A stretch of DNA of 38,679 bases, from assembly GCA_027048265.1 (NCBI GenBank), contig JALTXS010000161.1, forward strand, positions 1-38,679, read 5' to 3'. Below the pieces are notes generated by a model, which was not told the DNA's origin, made no database searches, and saw nothing but the letters and a program-made list of their open reading frames with translations. Origin of the DNA: Desulfurococcales archaeon. Its GTDB lineage: Archaea > Thermoproteota > Thermoprotei_A > Sulfolobales > Fervidicoccaceae. Shown here in pieces: positions 1 through 10,469 of this stretch; positions within the stretch are counted from its first letter, which is position 1, and every line of letters starts with the position of its first letter. The position numbers and the translations under genes were made by a program.

Positions 1-3
1 GGG

Positions 4-438
4 CTAGCCTGCGGAGTACAGCTCCTCCACGTCAACTTCCTCGAAGAACACCCGGGCGATGTCCTTTATGCTCACAATCCCCACGAGAACACCGTTGTCG
101 TCAACGATGGGCAGGTGACGGAACCCTCTTGATATCATTGTCTCGAGGGCACGAGAGGCGCTCCAGTCCTCCTTACCGACTATGGGGTTGGGGGTCATAA
201 CATCGCCCAGCCTGGTGTCGAGGCTCCTACCCTCACCGATGACCTTTATGAGCAGGTCCCTCTCGGTGAAGATACCCTCAGGCCTACCCTCGTCGTCAAC
301 TATGACCACCGAGCCTATCCTCCTATCAACCATCTCCCTAACAGCGTCAGCAACCCGGTCATCCCGCCTCATTTTCACAACATCCTTAATCTCGAGAGTA
401 AAAAGGGGAGGACCCTCACTGCAGAGGAGCTTACCCAT
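4..438 (-). CDS. Tandem CBS-domain protein (putative signal-transduction / nucleotide-sensing)
   Basis: 144 aa complete ORF (ATG at 438, TAG at 4-6); two CBS-like repeats: 'VADAVREMVDRRIGSVVIVDDEGRPEGIFTERDLL' and 'ASRALETMISRGFRHLPIVDDNGVLVGIVSIKDIA'. Confidence 0.93.
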   Translation of the reverse strand: MGKLLCSEGPPLFTLEIKDVVKMRRDDRVADAVREMVDRRIGSVVIVDDEGRPEGIFTERDLLIKVIGEGRSLDTRLGDVMTPNPIVGKEDWSASRALETMISRGFRHLPIVDDNGVLVGIVSIKDIARVFFEEVDVEELYSAG

Positions 439-912
439 ACCATAATCACCCCATAAGCTACAAAGAATGGTTGAAACATGTTAGCAAGGACTGTTTGATA
501 AGATATGGAGGGAGTCAGTTAAAAAACATACCTCAAATTCCCCGAAAGGCTGTCAACGTAGTCATTCCTTGTATGGACTCTGCGGATGTGTTCTTTTTAC
601 CCTACTTAGGAAGGGAAAAGTTTAGTTAACTTATGGAACTTTTACTGAAAGCTTTTAAGAATAATTCAATAACATGAACATATAGTTACAATGTGTTTGA
701 CTGGTATAACCTCGTGTTATAGCTTTAGTTACAGTATTAAGAGTCCCAGAAGTGGGATGAAGGAATAGTTAGACAAGAGACAAGTTAGATATAGACTGCA
801 CACATGAAATGAGGGTGTTTTTATTCAATTTTCAACTAACCGAAAATAATAAGGGAACCTAGATGCATTCAATTGAACAATACTGCAGACTACTTTCACA
901 CACAATGATGCT

Positions 913-2430
913 TTGGTAGGTGCGTGTGTTGTGTCGAGACTCTGCGTTTTTCAGGTTCTTGGGGCTATTAGGGGTTATGAGAAAGTTATATACGAACTTA
1001 AGGACCGCAGGGAAGAAGCTAGACTCTCGGGCAAAGCACTTTGCAACTTTCTCGCCAGCCCCGATGAGTGCAAACTGTACATTTTGGCCCCCGAGAGCCT
1101 AGTAACGACTGTCGCGAGTACTTCTAAAGAGGCACATGATCTCCTCAGCAACTGGGAAGAGCTGTCAATGACGATCGGCAACCATGTTAAGGAGCTCGCA
1201 TCTGGTATTCCAATGGAAGTAAGAATTTTGCCGTCCATAGGCTTATACAGCGGTAACAACTGGAGGGTTAGGTTCGATGGATCTGGGCAGGGTGAGGTGG
1301 AGCTGGCTATTCTAATACATATGCTTGAGGCGACAGGCTACGGGGGTAACTGCTGTTCTAGGGTCGTGTTCGATATCTCAACCGGGCTCAATATCTACGC
1401 ATCAATGGCTGTGAAAGCCCTCCGATCCCTGGTGACCGCGGACAAGCTTGGTAGACTGGATGATATACTTTTTGGTGATATATCTGGAATAGAAGCTGCT
1501 ATAGCATATGCTACACCTGTTCAAAGGGGATACAGAGGCCCCTATACACTTAATATCGAGGAGCTAGACGCTAGAATATTCTTCACATACCCCCTTACAG
1601 TAAGCGACATCCACAATGTGAAGCCAGATAATATCATAAGGGGCTTAAATAAGGAAGAGAAAAAGAAGGTTGGTAAATGCTACTCCGAGTTATTCAGCAA
1701 AATAAGGGATTTTCTGAGGCTTGGTCTTAAACTTCATAACACCATAAAATACAATGTGCCGCTGGCATTGTACCAGATTAGGTCCGAGGGACTGGTTGAA
1801 AGATGTGCCCACTATCCCCTGAATCTGGTTGAGAAACTAGCGAGATTCATTGAAGATTCGTGGAAATTAGGTATTGTTCCTAAAGCACGGTCTGTCGACT
1901 TTAACGGTAGCGAGCTAAAAGTGAAGTACAGTGGCGTGGAGAGAAGGCTCACGCTTTATACTGTACAGGCATTATTTGAGACAGCTGCACTAATGAGGCT
2001 GAGAGAGAGGCTCCTAGCAGGTGCTAGCATGGATATAGGCATTAGTATCGACAAGATAAGGAGTGATTTCACCAGTATCTACGAGAATAATAGCTATCTC
2101 TCACAGGACCTCATGCTTAACAAAAGACTGCTAGAAAGGGACCTGAGGGAAGTGGAAAGAGCTGCAGCCAAGCTGAATGAGGGAGAATGCAAGACGCTCA
2201 AAGAACTTCTTGAAAGTAACAGCAACCACGAAGGAAGCTCTAAACAAGGAGGTAGTAGAGGCAGTAATGAAGAAATGAAGCGGGTATCAGACCCTAAGAG
2301 AAACTTCTTCGCCCACAGCGGCCTCTCCAAGGAACTGGTTGAAACGTGTAGGGAAAACGCGAACACGTTAATAAGATATAGAAAAGAAAAACTTAGAGAA
2401 GTGGAGGATTGGCTGGAAAAACCTGTTTAG
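913..2430 (+). CDS. Csx1-like CARF-HEPN family protein (CRISPR type III ancillary ribonuclease), stand-alone
   Basis: 505 aa; CARF-type signature 'SRVVFDISTGLNIYASMAVKAL' (D-x-S-x-G-L-N) and C-terminal HEPN motif 'RNFFAHSGL' (R-x4-H). Start codon uncertain (TTG 913; GTG alternatives nearby). Confidence 0.82.
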   Translation: MVGACVVSRLCVFQVLGAIRGYEKVIYELKDRREEARLSGKALCNFLASPDECKLYILAPESLVTTVASTSKEAHDLLSNWEELSMTIGNHVKELASGIPMEVRILPSIGLYSGNNWRVRFDGSGQGEVELAILIHMLEATGYGGNCCSRVVFDISTGLNIYASMAVKALRSLVTADKLGRLDDILFGDISGIEAAIAYATPVQRGYRGPYTLNIEELDARIFFTYPLTVSDIHNVKPDNIIRGLNKEEKKKVGKCYSELFSKIRDFLRLGLKLHNTIKYNVPLALYQIRSEGLVERCAHYPLNLVEKLARFIEDSWKLGIVPKARSVDFNGSELKVKYSGVERRLTLYTVQALFETAALMRLRERLLAGASMDIGISIDKIRSDFTSIYENNSYLSQDLMLNKRLLERDLREVERAAAKLNEGECKTLKELLESNSNHEGSSKQGGSRGSNEEMKRVSDPKRNFFAHSGLSKELVETCRENANTLIRYRKEKLREVEDWLEKPV

Positions 2431-3192: not shown

Positions 3193-3543
3193 TTAGCCTT
3201 CACCTATAAGCCTCAGTGAGAAAAACAATCTATGCTCATGTTCTGCTATAGTGAGAAGTTCAAGGACTAAGGTTTAGTCTATTGTACCGTCTTCTTTAAC
3301 TGTATCGAGGCTTCTTAGTACCCCCAACGTTACTAGCTCCTCGAACTCGTGGCGTGAGAGTAGCTTGAGGAGTGGTTTCACACACTCTGGCTTGACTGGC
3401 GACTTCTTCTCAAGGATTATCCAAAGGGTTACCCTGCTTACCCCTGCAAGCTCCGTCACACGCTTCCTACCGTGCTTCTCAACCTTATGTTTGAGTATAC
3501 GCTGACGCGTCTCCTCGCTCAACTTTGTTGGGTCGACTTGCAT
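3193..3543 (-). pseudogene. Probable decayed integrase / HTH-domain protein; intact 89-aa N-terminal part is 3274-3543
   Basis: N-terminal HTH-like ORF 'MQVDPTKLSEETRQRILKHKVEKHGRKRVTELAGVSRVTLWIILEKKSP...LLKLLSRHEFEELVTLGVLRSLDTVKEDGTID' ends at TAA (3274-3276). The same frame continues as '*TLVLELLTIAEHEHRLFFSLRLIGEG' to about 3193. It resembles, from memory, N-terminal regions of crenarchaeal tyrosine-recombinase-like proteins. Confidence 0.5.
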
Positions 3544-3617
3544 CTACTACTCCTGATTGTCAGCCATGACTACCACTTCTGAAGTTTCAGCCTGCTCCAA
3601 GGAGGTGAAACACAGGA

Positions 3618-3632: not shown

Positions 3633-3674
3633 TTGTGGGGCTGGAGGAGAAGGTTTAAATATGAGGCATTTAAG

Positions 3675-3781
3675 TGGAGCCGCCGGCGGGATTCGAACCC
3701 GCGGCCACCGGCTTACAAGGCCGGCGCTCTTGGCCCCCTGTGGGGCCCTGCGCAGGGGTCTGCCAGCTGAGCTACGGCGGC
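3675..3781 (-). tRNA. tRNA-Thr (anticodon UGU) with a non-canonical D-loop intron and encoded CCA
   Basis: Minus strand spliced: GCCGCCG TA GCTC AGCTGGCA GAGC G CCGGC CTTGTAA GCCGG TGGCC GCGGG TTCGAAT CCCGC CGGCGGC T CCA (76 nt, all four stems perfect). About 31 nt of extra sequence sits in the D-loop at about 3728-3758 (junction ambiguous by up to 2 nt). Confidence 0.93.
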
Positions 3782-7600: not shown

Positions 7601-7946
7601 GGCCCTTTCATCGACCAGGGTCTTTGTTGGCAGGATAGGCCCGGGTACAAGCAGTACCCTGACCCTGAGCCTAGTGCCCCAGGCGGGCTCTGCTGGAGAC
7701 AGGACCCTTTCCCTAAGGATAACATATGAGGACAATCTGGGCAACTCTTATCAGGAGACCCTGGAAGTGCCCGTCAGAATACAGTCTACCCTAAATCAGG
7801 TTACAGGAGAGGGAGGAGGACAGGTTGAACAGGGGAGTAGTGCTGCCCCCTTCGGGCTTGAGGGGGCTCGCCTGATAGCCGTACTTGGTGTCGTGATTGT
7901 TGCACTTGTGGTCGCCAAGATTGTGAGGAGCCGGGGCCATGATTAG
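4629..7946 (+). CDS. Large secreted/membrane-anchored protein with about nine tandem beta-sandwich repeats (COG1361/NEW3/CARDB-like); ABC-transporter partner
   Basis: 1105 aa; N-terminal hydrophobic signal 'LIVIIAMVLLAFITTLLVQ'; recurring 'vGxLxPGexxxIxLxlxV' motifs; C-terminal TM 'LIAVLGVVIVALVVAKIVRSRGHD'; overlaps both neighbours. Confidence 0.85.
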   Translation: MADVLVRREASTIPRLIVIIAMVLLAFITTLLVQETNAQLPPQLNMTRVIGVAWEGVENGVCPSPGDSAVNLLVRVQYLGKEPLAGIEATLELPWGLESLEGDDSAKVYLPGPIQPGGIVVFKFPLNVSDKLTVGEKEADLTLSAPGVLEETHKVAVWIGDSPLIEVRLLNLSALAGGENRVLLSIANRGTGEAWDLRVYLESREGLPLEPSTVYIGTLPGGEERIIELMLNTSRETSPRPLSLEVRLSGYDECRGLWEETKLLTLPLDLPPVDGVRITAWARDLRAGGQGVLHVALENQLPYAAHDIVLSLSLPGFLALPNTSDLIEVGSLGPGETTVIDLPLRVSSTAPDLGRVGISVAYKVGLISLTHTTSVDIPIEKPPRPQVDLNVNVRDTPVSGSVSRIKVTATNKGDTPAENAQIVVSAQPPAQVLGLASRTLGRLEPGEQISLSYNVYIPPGVSGTLQLRVSLSYEDALTGKPGVKEQAFALPIESRGSSDLTVILSPPSLKAGHIVPVEATVINTGQASLENVTITLSLPPTIRLVGVNQEWFIPELKPDEKAARVYYAYTVPQASGVETITVTLTYYKDGMRNEKVLPLGIPVVSPPTPMPSVRLYEKALVEGRENRVSLVVENRGRETAYNLTLNIQSPTATIAPPTLYVGTLPPGGSKEFRTTVTPSSPGPITLQLQMFYEDELGRQHSVSQTLGVKVLPKPTSSAIEIRLVRPNNAELGPGSHRVVFEIINKLDHPLQDVVVGVRTGAASPIVVNTGASPIVIGGMGPGESREIGLDVLVLPVQSEARASIILSVSYWDPENGPGNRMLETYFRVSPIPTPQLQASLEPTTIEAGRPTPVLIKIQNTGTSDWESVEATLTPLGPSSIIVGTSHYSLGMMPAGKASVINTTLYVPPTLGDNVALTLTLKLYQGGMPFTITSTLGFLVKKTPVLEVTEMSVIPEDVVEGQPFSLSITLSNLGKGAAEKVFLETGLPQGIEALSSTRVFVGRIGPGTSSTLTLSLVPQAGSAGDRTLSLRITYEDNLGNSYQETLEVPVRIQSTLNQVTGEGGGQVEQGSSAAPFGLEGARLIAVLGVVIVALVVAKIVRSRGHD
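5349..5377. repeat. Perfect 11-bp inverted repeat with 7-nt loop inside the large repeat protein gene
   Basis: CCGCTTAGCCT (5349-5359) / AGGCTAAGCGG (5367-5377), loop AGAAGTC. Confidence 0.9.
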
Positions 7947-9147
7947 TGATTTTATACTGGTCTCGCTCAAGTCGCTTACTGCCAGGAAGACACGGGTAGT
8001 GTTGACCCTGTTCAGCGTCGCTGTCGGCGTGGCTACCATACTTGCCCTCGTTGCCCAGACCGCAGGTATAAGTCAGAGCATACAGGAGACCCTGGAGAAA
8101 ATGGGGCCTGAGACCATATTCGTCTTCAGCAGCAGGCTCACTCCCAGCGATATAGAGGCTGTTAAGAGGATACCTGGGGTCAGGGACGCTGAGCCTATGA
8201 TTACTCTTATAACGAACGTTTACGTGGGGGGAGAGAAGCTCCAGCAGCAGATTGTCCTGGGGGTGACCCCCAAGGGTCTTGAGATGTTCCTTTCTGATAT
8301 AAAGCTGCTTGACGGCACCGTGTTCCCTGACACAAAGGCCCCTTTGGCCCTAATCGGGTACAACGTAGGCTACGATCACCTGAGGGAGAGGCAGAAAGTC
8401 TTTGCAGGGCAGCCGATTTTCATGGAGGTCGGCTCGGGCGGCGATGTTAGGCTCGTGAGACTCACTGTGTCGGGTGTCATGGACAGGTATGGTGCACTCG
8501 CGTTCCTCAGACCCGATGACATAATTTTCATACCACTGAGGAGTGCCCAGGACATCCTGGGCAGTGCGACTTACAATAGGATTATAGTGAAAGCTGTTAG
8601 CGTGGACCAGGTGGACCCTGTCGTCGAGAGTATTTCTAACATGTTCGGAGAGAACGCCATGCCTGTCTCCGCCCAGCAGATCGGAGAGGCCTTCCAAACA
8701 GTGGTCAGGCAACTCAGCTTTCTCATGGCAGGTATAGCAGGCATTAGCCTCGTCGTAGCCAGCCTGGGCATACTTAACACAATGCTCATAACCGTGCTTG
8801 AGAGAACACGTGAGATTGGCACCTATAAGGCCCTGGGCTACAAGAACAGGCATGTCCTCCTCATGATACTCGTTGAGGGGACCCTCATAGGCTTCATGGG
8901 GGGGCTAGTAGGAGTGGGCATGGGTGTCGCGGGCTCCCTAGCAATACCCAAGATAATCGCCCGCAGGGCTGCAGAGAGGGCATCGGCCTTCGAGGCGCCC
9001 GCTCCCATCGGGTACACGCCAGTCATAGACCCCCAAATCATACTCCTGGCTCTAGGAGTCGCTGTTCTAGTGAGCATGATCTCGAGCCTATACCCTGCTT
9101 GGAGGGCGGCTCGGATGGACCCTGTGAGAGCCCTGAGGTACGAGTAG
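7939..9147 (+). CDS. ABC transporter permease, FtsX/MacB-type
   Basis: 402 aa; 'MISDFILVSLKSLTARKTRVVLTLFSVAVGVATILAL' N-terminus, 'GILNTMLITVLERTREIGTYKALGYKNRHVL' and 'SSLYPAWRAARMDPVRALRYE' typical of the family. Confidence 0.94.
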   Translation: MISDFILVSLKSLTARKTRVVLTLFSVAVGVATILALVAQTAGISQSIQETLEKMGPETIFVFSSRLTPSDIEAVKRIPGVRDAEPMITLITNVYVGGEKLQQQIVLGVTPKGLEMFLSDIKLLDGTVFPDTKAPLALIGYNVGYDHLRERQKVFAGQPIFMEVGSGGDVRLVRLTVSGVMDRYGALAFLRPDDIIFIPLRSAQDILGSATYNRIIVKAVSVDQVDPVVESISNMFGENAMPVSAQQIGEAFQTVVRQLSFLMAGIAGISLVVASLGILNTMLITVLERTREIGTYKALGYKNRHVLLMILVEGTLIGFMGGLVGVGMGVAGSLAIPKIIARRAAERASAFEAPAPIGYTPVIDPQIILLALGVAVLVSMISSLYPAWRAARMDPVRALRYE

Positions 9148-9165
9148 CCTCGAGCTTCAGGCGCC

Positions 9166-9181
9166 GCCCACGTTCGTGGGC
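9166..9181 (+). terminator. GC-rich hairpin just downstream of the ABC operon (possible transcript 3'-end element)
   Basis: GCCCACGTTCGTGGGC, 7-bp palindromic stem, 19 nt after the permease stop codon. Confidence 0.3.
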
Positions 9182-9269
9182 CTATATTGGAATTGTTATC
9201 CATTATTATCCTCAGAACGTGATAGAAAAACGAGCCCATCACATAACCCTACGGGAGAAGGGGTGCCTG

Positions 9270-10469
9270 TTGCACAGGAACCTGAAGGCCATGCTGGTCT
9301 ATGTGCTTATGTTCTCCTTCGCTATGAACACGTTTAGGATATACTATCCCTACTACCTTGCAGAGAGGGGGCTTGAGCTAAACACTATTGGAGGGCTTAC
9401 TGGCATAGGCCTACTGGCATCGGCCATAGCACTCCCCCTCGCAGGAGCTCTAATAGACACGGTTGGACGGAAACCCGTAATCCTGATGACAAGCCTAATG
9501 ATAACCGTAGCATCCCTCATAGCACTAGCCCCCCTCAGCCTGCCCCTAGTGGTCCTGGCACTGTTTTTCTTCTACACAGCCTTCGTCACAGGTAACCCCG
9601 CGCGGAGTTCCCTAATCGCCGACAGCGTTCCCCCAGAAAGGCTGGGGGCAGCCTTCGGCCTCATCGCCACTTTCTTCAGCATATCTAGAGTCCTCTCACC
9701 ATACCCTGCAGGTCTTGTTGCTGAGAAAATGGGCTACGCCCGACTGTTCTCCCTGATACTGGTTCTAGCCCTCGCCAGCCTCGTGTTCGCTGCAATCGCG
9801 TTCAAGGAAACCCTGACCGATAGGAGGCTCCCCCATCCAAGCGAGCTACGAGCCCGGTTGATTGAGACGGTTAAGGTACATCCCCGCGAGAGAACAGTCA
9901 TAGAGTTTATGGTGATGGACAGGATTGCCTGGTCGCTCTGGTTCCCCCTCCTCACGCCGTATCTCAAAGTCGCCTACGGTCTCGAGCCTGCCGAGGTGGG
10001 TGTACTTATGACCTTGGTCGATGTCGTGGGTGTTTTCACCCAGTATGGAGTAGGCATTGCTGCCGACAGAATAGGGGCACTCAAGCCCCTCATGCTAAGC
10101 GAGGTTGCCGGCATTACTATAGGCACGCTAATGTATGTGGGGCTACCCAAAAACCTCCTGCCAGTCGCCATGGTTCTATTGGGCATAGCAATATCATCCT
10201 GGATACCCGCGTACAACACGCTACTCTCACGCATATCCCCATCCCCCGGGGAAAGGGGGCGTCTGTTCGCAAAGTCCAACTTCTACAGAACAATCGTGGG
10301 GAGCCCCTCCTCCGGCCTGGGGGGATGGATGTTCTCCCACATAGGCCTAGGCTCCCCGTTTGCCACAAGCGCGGTTCTCCTAACCATGGTGGTTGTAAGG
10401 TATTACCCCAGGCTTAAGAGGGAAACCAATGGTGGGAGACCCACCATCGTCCATATACCGGAGAAGTAA
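9270..10469 (+). CDS. Major facilitator superfamily transporter
   Basis: Multiple TM segments and MFS-type loop 'GALIDTVGRKPVILMTSLMI'. The ORF track starts at 9099 inside the permease; the plausible start is TTG 9270 or ATG 9291. Confidence 0.85.
   Translation: MHRNLKAMLVYVLMFSFAMNTFRIYYPYYLAERGLELNTIGGLTGIGLLASAIALPLAGALIDTVGRKPVILMTSLMITVASLIALAPLSLPLVVLALFFFYTAFVTGNPARSSLIADSVPPERLGAAFGLIATFFSISRVLSPYPAGLVAEKMGYARLFSLILVLALASLVFAAIAFKETLTDRRLPHPSELRARLIETVKVHPRERTVIEFMVMDRIAWSLWFPLLTPYLKVAYGLEPAEVGVLMTLVDVVGVFTQYGVGIAADRIGALKPLMLSEVAGITIGTLMYVGLPKNLLPVAMVLLGIAISSWIPAYNTLLSRISPSPGERGRLFAKSNFYRTIVGSPSSGLGGWMFSHIGLGSPFATSAVLLTMVVVRYYPRLKRETNGGRPTIVHIPEK
10429..10447. repeat. Perfect 8-bp inverted repeat, 3-nt loop, near the 3' end of the MFS gene
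   Basis: ATGGTGGG AGA CCCACCAT. Confidence 0.85.

Follow-up and report, generated by a model that had tools for sequence, protein, structure and literature searches.

Among the described CARF-HEPN ribonucleases, SisCsx1 of Saccharolobus islandicus (6QZQ/6R9R) joins a CARF to a HEPN domain with an R-N-x-x-x-H active site, belongs to a III-B setting, and contacts cA4 through Y14, Y19, S51, T154, H155, G156, and N158 (PMC6754442). The same source gives the name SsoCsx1 to PDB 2I71 and reports that the Csm6 of Thermococcus onnurineus (ToCsm6) cleaves cA4 through W14 and H132. CARF genes unlinked to CRISPR-Cas have been reported (PMC4012209), and a survey of the Sulfolobales describes one strain with csx1 and ring nucleases and without a type III system (PMC7694759).

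The window, by which the whole 38.7-kb stretch of DNA analyzed is meant, is contig C161 of a draft genome (1.2 Mb, 213 contigs, 61% complete) and carries a csx1 gene. The explanation that we favor, and consider quite probable, is that this gene encodes an acquired, ordinary Csx1 that is activated in trans by the cyclic oligoadenylate of a distant Cmr complex, the gene itself lying in a mobile-DNA hotspot. Its features are as follows:

931-2430, plus strand: csx1, CARF-HEPN ribonuclease (ORF, Pfam, PADLOC, homologue alignment, fold)
946-1437, plus strand: CARF domain, cyclic-oligoadenylate sensor (Pfam PF22230)
1363-1398, plus strand: CARF pocket motif VVFDISTGLNIY (from the sequence; D, S, T, G, and N invariant in alignment A2)
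2119-2382, plus strand: HEPN ribonuclease domain (Pfam PF09455)
2299-2316, plus strand: HEPN catalytic motif RNFFAH (R-x4-H), invariant in alignments A1 and A2

The ORF list gives an intact frame of 505 codons from a TTG at 913 to 2430; the GTG at 931, which is preceded by an AGGTG stretch, is the preferred start, and the resulting 499-aa protein aligns from residue 1 with its homologue in a related genome (G033). The protein is a CARF-HEPN Csx1, as the sequence-only reading had claimed, and is not placed outside these families by HMM comparison: both Pfam models exceed their gathering cut-offs (Csx1_CARF, PF22230, residues 12-175, 43.9 bits, 4e-11, cut-off 24.7; Csx1_HEPN, PF09455, residues 403-490, 45.7 bits, 9e-12, cut-off 23), and the PADLOC Csx1/Csm6 model matches at 2e-40. 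The whole-length NCBIfam equivalog TIGR01897 (cas_MJ1666) scores 73.5 bits, under its cut-off of 110, which indicates a divergent Csx1; the protein is thereby excluded from this equivalog branch, though not from Csx1 in general. The structure prediction that had been proposed for the protein agrees with the assignment, as an AlphaFold model built from an alignment with four relatives (mean pLDDT 77.5, pTM 0.78) has a predicted Csx1/Csm6 fold, and the top eleven Foldseek matches in the PDB are all Csm6 or Csx1, among them Csm6 6O6S (8e-16), Pyrococcus furiosus Csx1 (4e-15), and S. solfataricus 2I71 (2e-14). As had also been stated, no CRISPR-like array was found in the 38.7-kb window, and no cas gene besides csx1 among the window ORFs inspected. 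A 13-bp repeat, GTTTAGTTAACTT, present at 620 and 2425, is regarded as chance-level.

The ligand pocket of the window protein has the motif D-x-S-T-G-x-N instead of the common D-x-T-H-G-x-N. In an alignment with the PDB sequence, Y16, Y21, and S56 fall on Y14, Y19, and S51 of SisCsx1, and in the motif, where the alignment past residue 113 was made by eye, S150, T151, G152, and N154 fall on T154, H155, G156, and N158. Thus, five of the seven published cA4 contacts are identical, one is conservatively replaced (T154 by S150), and H155 is replaced by T151. Four homologues located near Cas10 genes have the same STG sequence, which therefore characterizes the branch and does not point to decay. Judged from these residues, cA4 is the likeliest ligand.

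Type III genes are present elsewhere in the same genome. Contig C59 (L004) encodes a Cas10 of 1381 aa with the HD motif FHDPPWK and the cyclase motif AGDD, and the last 127 bases of this contig are the exact start of contig C54 (L046), on which cmr3 comes directly next; C59 plus C54 is a type III-B fragment, cas10-cmr3. Exact contig-end overlaps, such as these 127 bases or the 91 bases shared by contig C10 and window positions 1-91, are an assembler pattern at graph branches, so that neighboring contigs can be deduced from them. The palm motif of the C59 Cas10 is AGDD, against GGDD in the Cas10s of G033, G002, and G001, and published Cas10s whose loci have known effectors include AGDD variants (PMC11229360). 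Past cmr3 on C54 there are two small ORFs (L046:1472-2301), the first containing a run of N and the second without a PADLOC match; they may be what is left of additional cmr genes. Contig C59 starts just upstream of the cas10 start, where G033 has cmr4, cmr5, and other RAMP genes; no contig continuing upstream of it was found, nor any RAMP-superfamily gene (cmr1/4/6) in the 61%-complete draft, and a complete Cmr complex is therefore a prediction from cas10 and cmr3. Because the genome is a draft of this completeness, a binning error for C59/C54 is possible; the tetranucleotide composition of C59 correlates with that of the window at r 0.81, compared with 0.54 for G033 DNA.

On contig C188 (L005:5572-7235, 7637-9582), a second csx1, interrupted by frame changes and by a stop, adjoins a Cas_APE2256 CARF gene. 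An ATPase resembling AriA/HEC-01A and its HEC-01B-like partner are next to it as well, and together these genes form a small defense island beside trp-like genes. The claim that the window gene stands alone thus holds within its contig and fails for the genome, which has cas10-cmr3 on C59/C54 and this second csx1. The genome-wide search that the sequence-only reading had recommended recovered cas10 and cmr3 and no CRISPR array, the latter sought by the sole repeat-end pattern TTGAAAG, which makes a weak test because the array of G033 uses another repeat.

Comparison with relatives provides the best evidence for a link between the two loci. Among 98 related genomes, matches to the window Csx1 were found only in G033, in G002, and in its own genome, and in both G033 and G002 csx1 adjoins a cmr operon. 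The closest Csx1 found is that of G033 (L009:8751-10301), full length at 34-38% identity (34% over 547 columns, 259 bits), whereas the G002 protein, from the same family, scores 48 bits. In G033 the gene heads the cmr operon, and cas6 and a CRISPR array lie close by. The C59 Cas10 follows the same order, with 303 bits against the Cas10 of G033 and 105 bits against that of same-family G002, and the Cmr3 of C54 is 33% identical to that of G033; the Cas10 and Cmr3 of G033 are the best matches to those of the window's genome among those compared. This parallel among Csx1, Cas10, and Cmr3 suggests that the window csx1 and the C59 cas10 belong to one system. Supply in trans by a distant type III locus, one of three options offered by the sequence-only reading, is consequently the best supported of them, since the genome has a Cas10 and a Cmr3 of the operon type of the nearest homologue.

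An alignment query retrieved five further archaeal homologues from a genome contig collection, in which a single-protein scan had found none. Four of these five have a Cas10 gene within 10 kb, which by best model is of III-A or another non-Cmr type, and the Csx1 branch is therefore not bound to one subtype. No homologue was found in phage, plasmid, or viral-contig collections.

The site of the gene is bounded by a CBS-domain gene and a tRNA, neighbors that had been named correctly and were recovered by Pfam and by Rfam, respectively. Its features are as follows:

4-438, minus strand: CBS-domain gene, conserved left boundary of a variable island (Pfam; G001, a genome of the same genus, has a copy at 98% identity)
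439-813: remainder of the left flank, common with G001, ending in a vapB-like antitoxin remnant (about 704-823)
2595-2700: short noncoding relic, aligned colinearly to the island of G001 (107 columns at 74%, E 1e-10)
3226-3594, minus strand: archaeal integrase N-terminal relic of PF16795 type (tblastn)
3674-3722, minus strand: attachment-site-like tRNA 3' half, with two further copies, of 49 bp and 43 bp, in the G001 island (L023)
3678-3781, minus strand: tRNA-Thr with an intron and anticodon TGT (by eye), 3' end towards the csx1 island (Rfam RF00005, 61 bits; gene also in G001)

Window positions 1-813 (82.5% by blastn to L023 11804-11022), 2595-2700, and 3674 onward match G001, and csx1 has no counterpart there; the antitoxin remnant is detected by tblastn at 779-823 (E 0.004). 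At the same site (L023:6129-11022), G001 has PIN-domain toxin/antitoxin pairs, a 338-aa orphan, and the two tRNA-Thr 3'-half copies, an interval that is apparently the product of tandem integration at the tRNA. The integrase relic is separated from the tRNA 3' end by 84 bp and corresponds to 124 of the 437 codons of an intact integrase (L025), to which it is 52% identical over 124 aa (tblastn, E 6e-35); a stop lies inside it, near 3274, the first 89 codons being open (3274-3543). Its PF16795 assignment comes from intact relatives, and PF16795 is a domain of archaeal suicidal integrases (PMC8371274). A similar-looking integrase relic in G003 was rejected as a counterpart: it is at a tRNA-Ser, beside a different CBS gene. 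The tRNA-Thr was missed by ARAGORN, presumably due to its unusual intron, which is apparently in the D-loop.

To the left, contig C10 (L043), joined to the window by the 91 exact bases, is colinear with G001 at 88.6% and carries metabolic genes (aconitase-, thioesterase-, and peptidase-like, named by eye). A type III operon directly beyond the left edge, which would have refuted the sequence-only reading, is thus ruled out for at least 6.8 kb.

The GC3 of csx1 is 0.49, against 0.54-0.68 in sampled window genes. Taken together, the integrase relic, the tRNA 3'-half copies of G001, and this low GC3 identify the location as a tRNA-Thr integration hotspot. The arrival of csx1 itself on a mobile element is likely, and not more than that, because no outer attachment copy survives: the tRNA 3' half is not present a second time in the window as a direct repeat flanking the insert.

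These observations bear on three other explanations. The gene could be cargo of a decayed integrative element, kept for the benefit of the element (e.g., against competitors) with the host cyclic oligoadenylate as the trigger. Such an origin would account for an island flanked by a conserved CBS gene and a tRNA-Thr, for the integrase relic next to that tRNA, for the toxin-antitoxin genes and tRNA 3'-half copies of G001, and for the low GC3 of csx1. Nevertheless, it is unlikely, as the distal attachment copy is absent from the window, no replication or virion gene is seen next to csx1, the phage, plasmid, and viral-contig collections contain no homologue, and the relatives examined are mostly beside cas operons. 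Of the mobile-element-borne effector suggested earlier, then, the location stands, and nothing indicates a hijacking of host signaling.

A stranded leftover of a cmr operon, its signal gone and the gene heading for loss like the broken csx1 of C188, has a very low probability: the window csx1 is intact over its full length and its catalytic residues are invariant among the aligned homologues, the AGDD that might speak for a failing C59 Cas10 also occurs in Cas10s with effectors (PMC11229360), and the RAMP genes not found in the draft fit an assembly that is 61% complete. The least credible alternative is a CARF-HEPN protein outside CRISPR that answers another ligand, as the sequence-only reading had also contemplated. 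The DxSTGxN pocket in place of DxTHGxN and the known CARF genes without CRISPR-Cas linkage would agree with it; however, the same DxSTGxN occurs in homologues near Cas10 genes, the genome has a Cas10 of its own, and the HEPN residues are kept along with the five cA4-contact positions.

According to the favored explanation, activation in trans, foreign RNA would be recognized by a III-B (Cmr) complex whose genes lie at another place in the genome, and the Cas10 subunit, putatively that of C59, would then make a cyclic oligoadenylate, probably cA4. The messenger would diffuse to the CARF dimer and turn on the HEPN active site (R457, N458, H462), which would degrade RNA unspecifically. The cyclase output and the ligand are less certain because of AGDD in place of GGDD and of a threonine in place of the pocket histidine. 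Its place in a tRNA-Thr-linked hotspot, where defense cargo comes and goes, would explain why the gene is separated from its cas operon.

Isolation of this kind is ordinary here, as indicated by the surveyed Sulfolobales strain and by single-contig relatives, in which 18 of the 32 Csx1_CARF places are more than 20 kb from a detected Cas10 or in a genome without one, a count in which Cas10 was sought with two Pfam models that divergent Cas10s may escape, genome sizes are rounded, and some places are fragments. In this order, Csx1 occurs far from any detected Cas10 about as often as near one, and finding it by itself on a contig does not point to a new signaling pathway. At one and the same site, the window's genome has a type III effector where a same-genus genome has toxin-antitoxin genes; this comparison bears on how effectors come to be parted from the operons supplying their signal. 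It is conceivable, if doubtful, that csx1 is traded as free-moving cargo through tRNA-linked hotspots, in the manner of toxin-antitoxin genes, arming any type III system of the host; if true, effector and signal maker would be uncoupled in evolution.

The locus can finally be set against the known systems. ToCsm6 (6O6S; cA4-bound 6O6Z) and P. furiosus Csx1 (4EOG) are CARF-HEPN ribonucleases and the best fold matches, with 12-15% identity to the window protein; W14 and H132 of ToCsm6 appear, by eye, to correspond to Y16 and T151, which makes a self-limiting ring cleavage less likely. SisCsx1 shares the domain plan, the active site, the III-B setting, and most of the cA4 contacts, and differs in its pocket histidine, in its weak overall sequence match (E 0.16) and poor whole-chain superposition, and in that the window gene is away from its operon. 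The G033 Csx1, the closest full-length homologue, is beside its cmr genes and has the pocket motif DTSVGYN. The inter-locus (in trans) use of effectors proposed for type III systems (PMC11229360) likewise involves an effector encoded away from the signaling Cas10, whereas the window effector lies in a tRNA-linked hotspot and not in a second type III locus.
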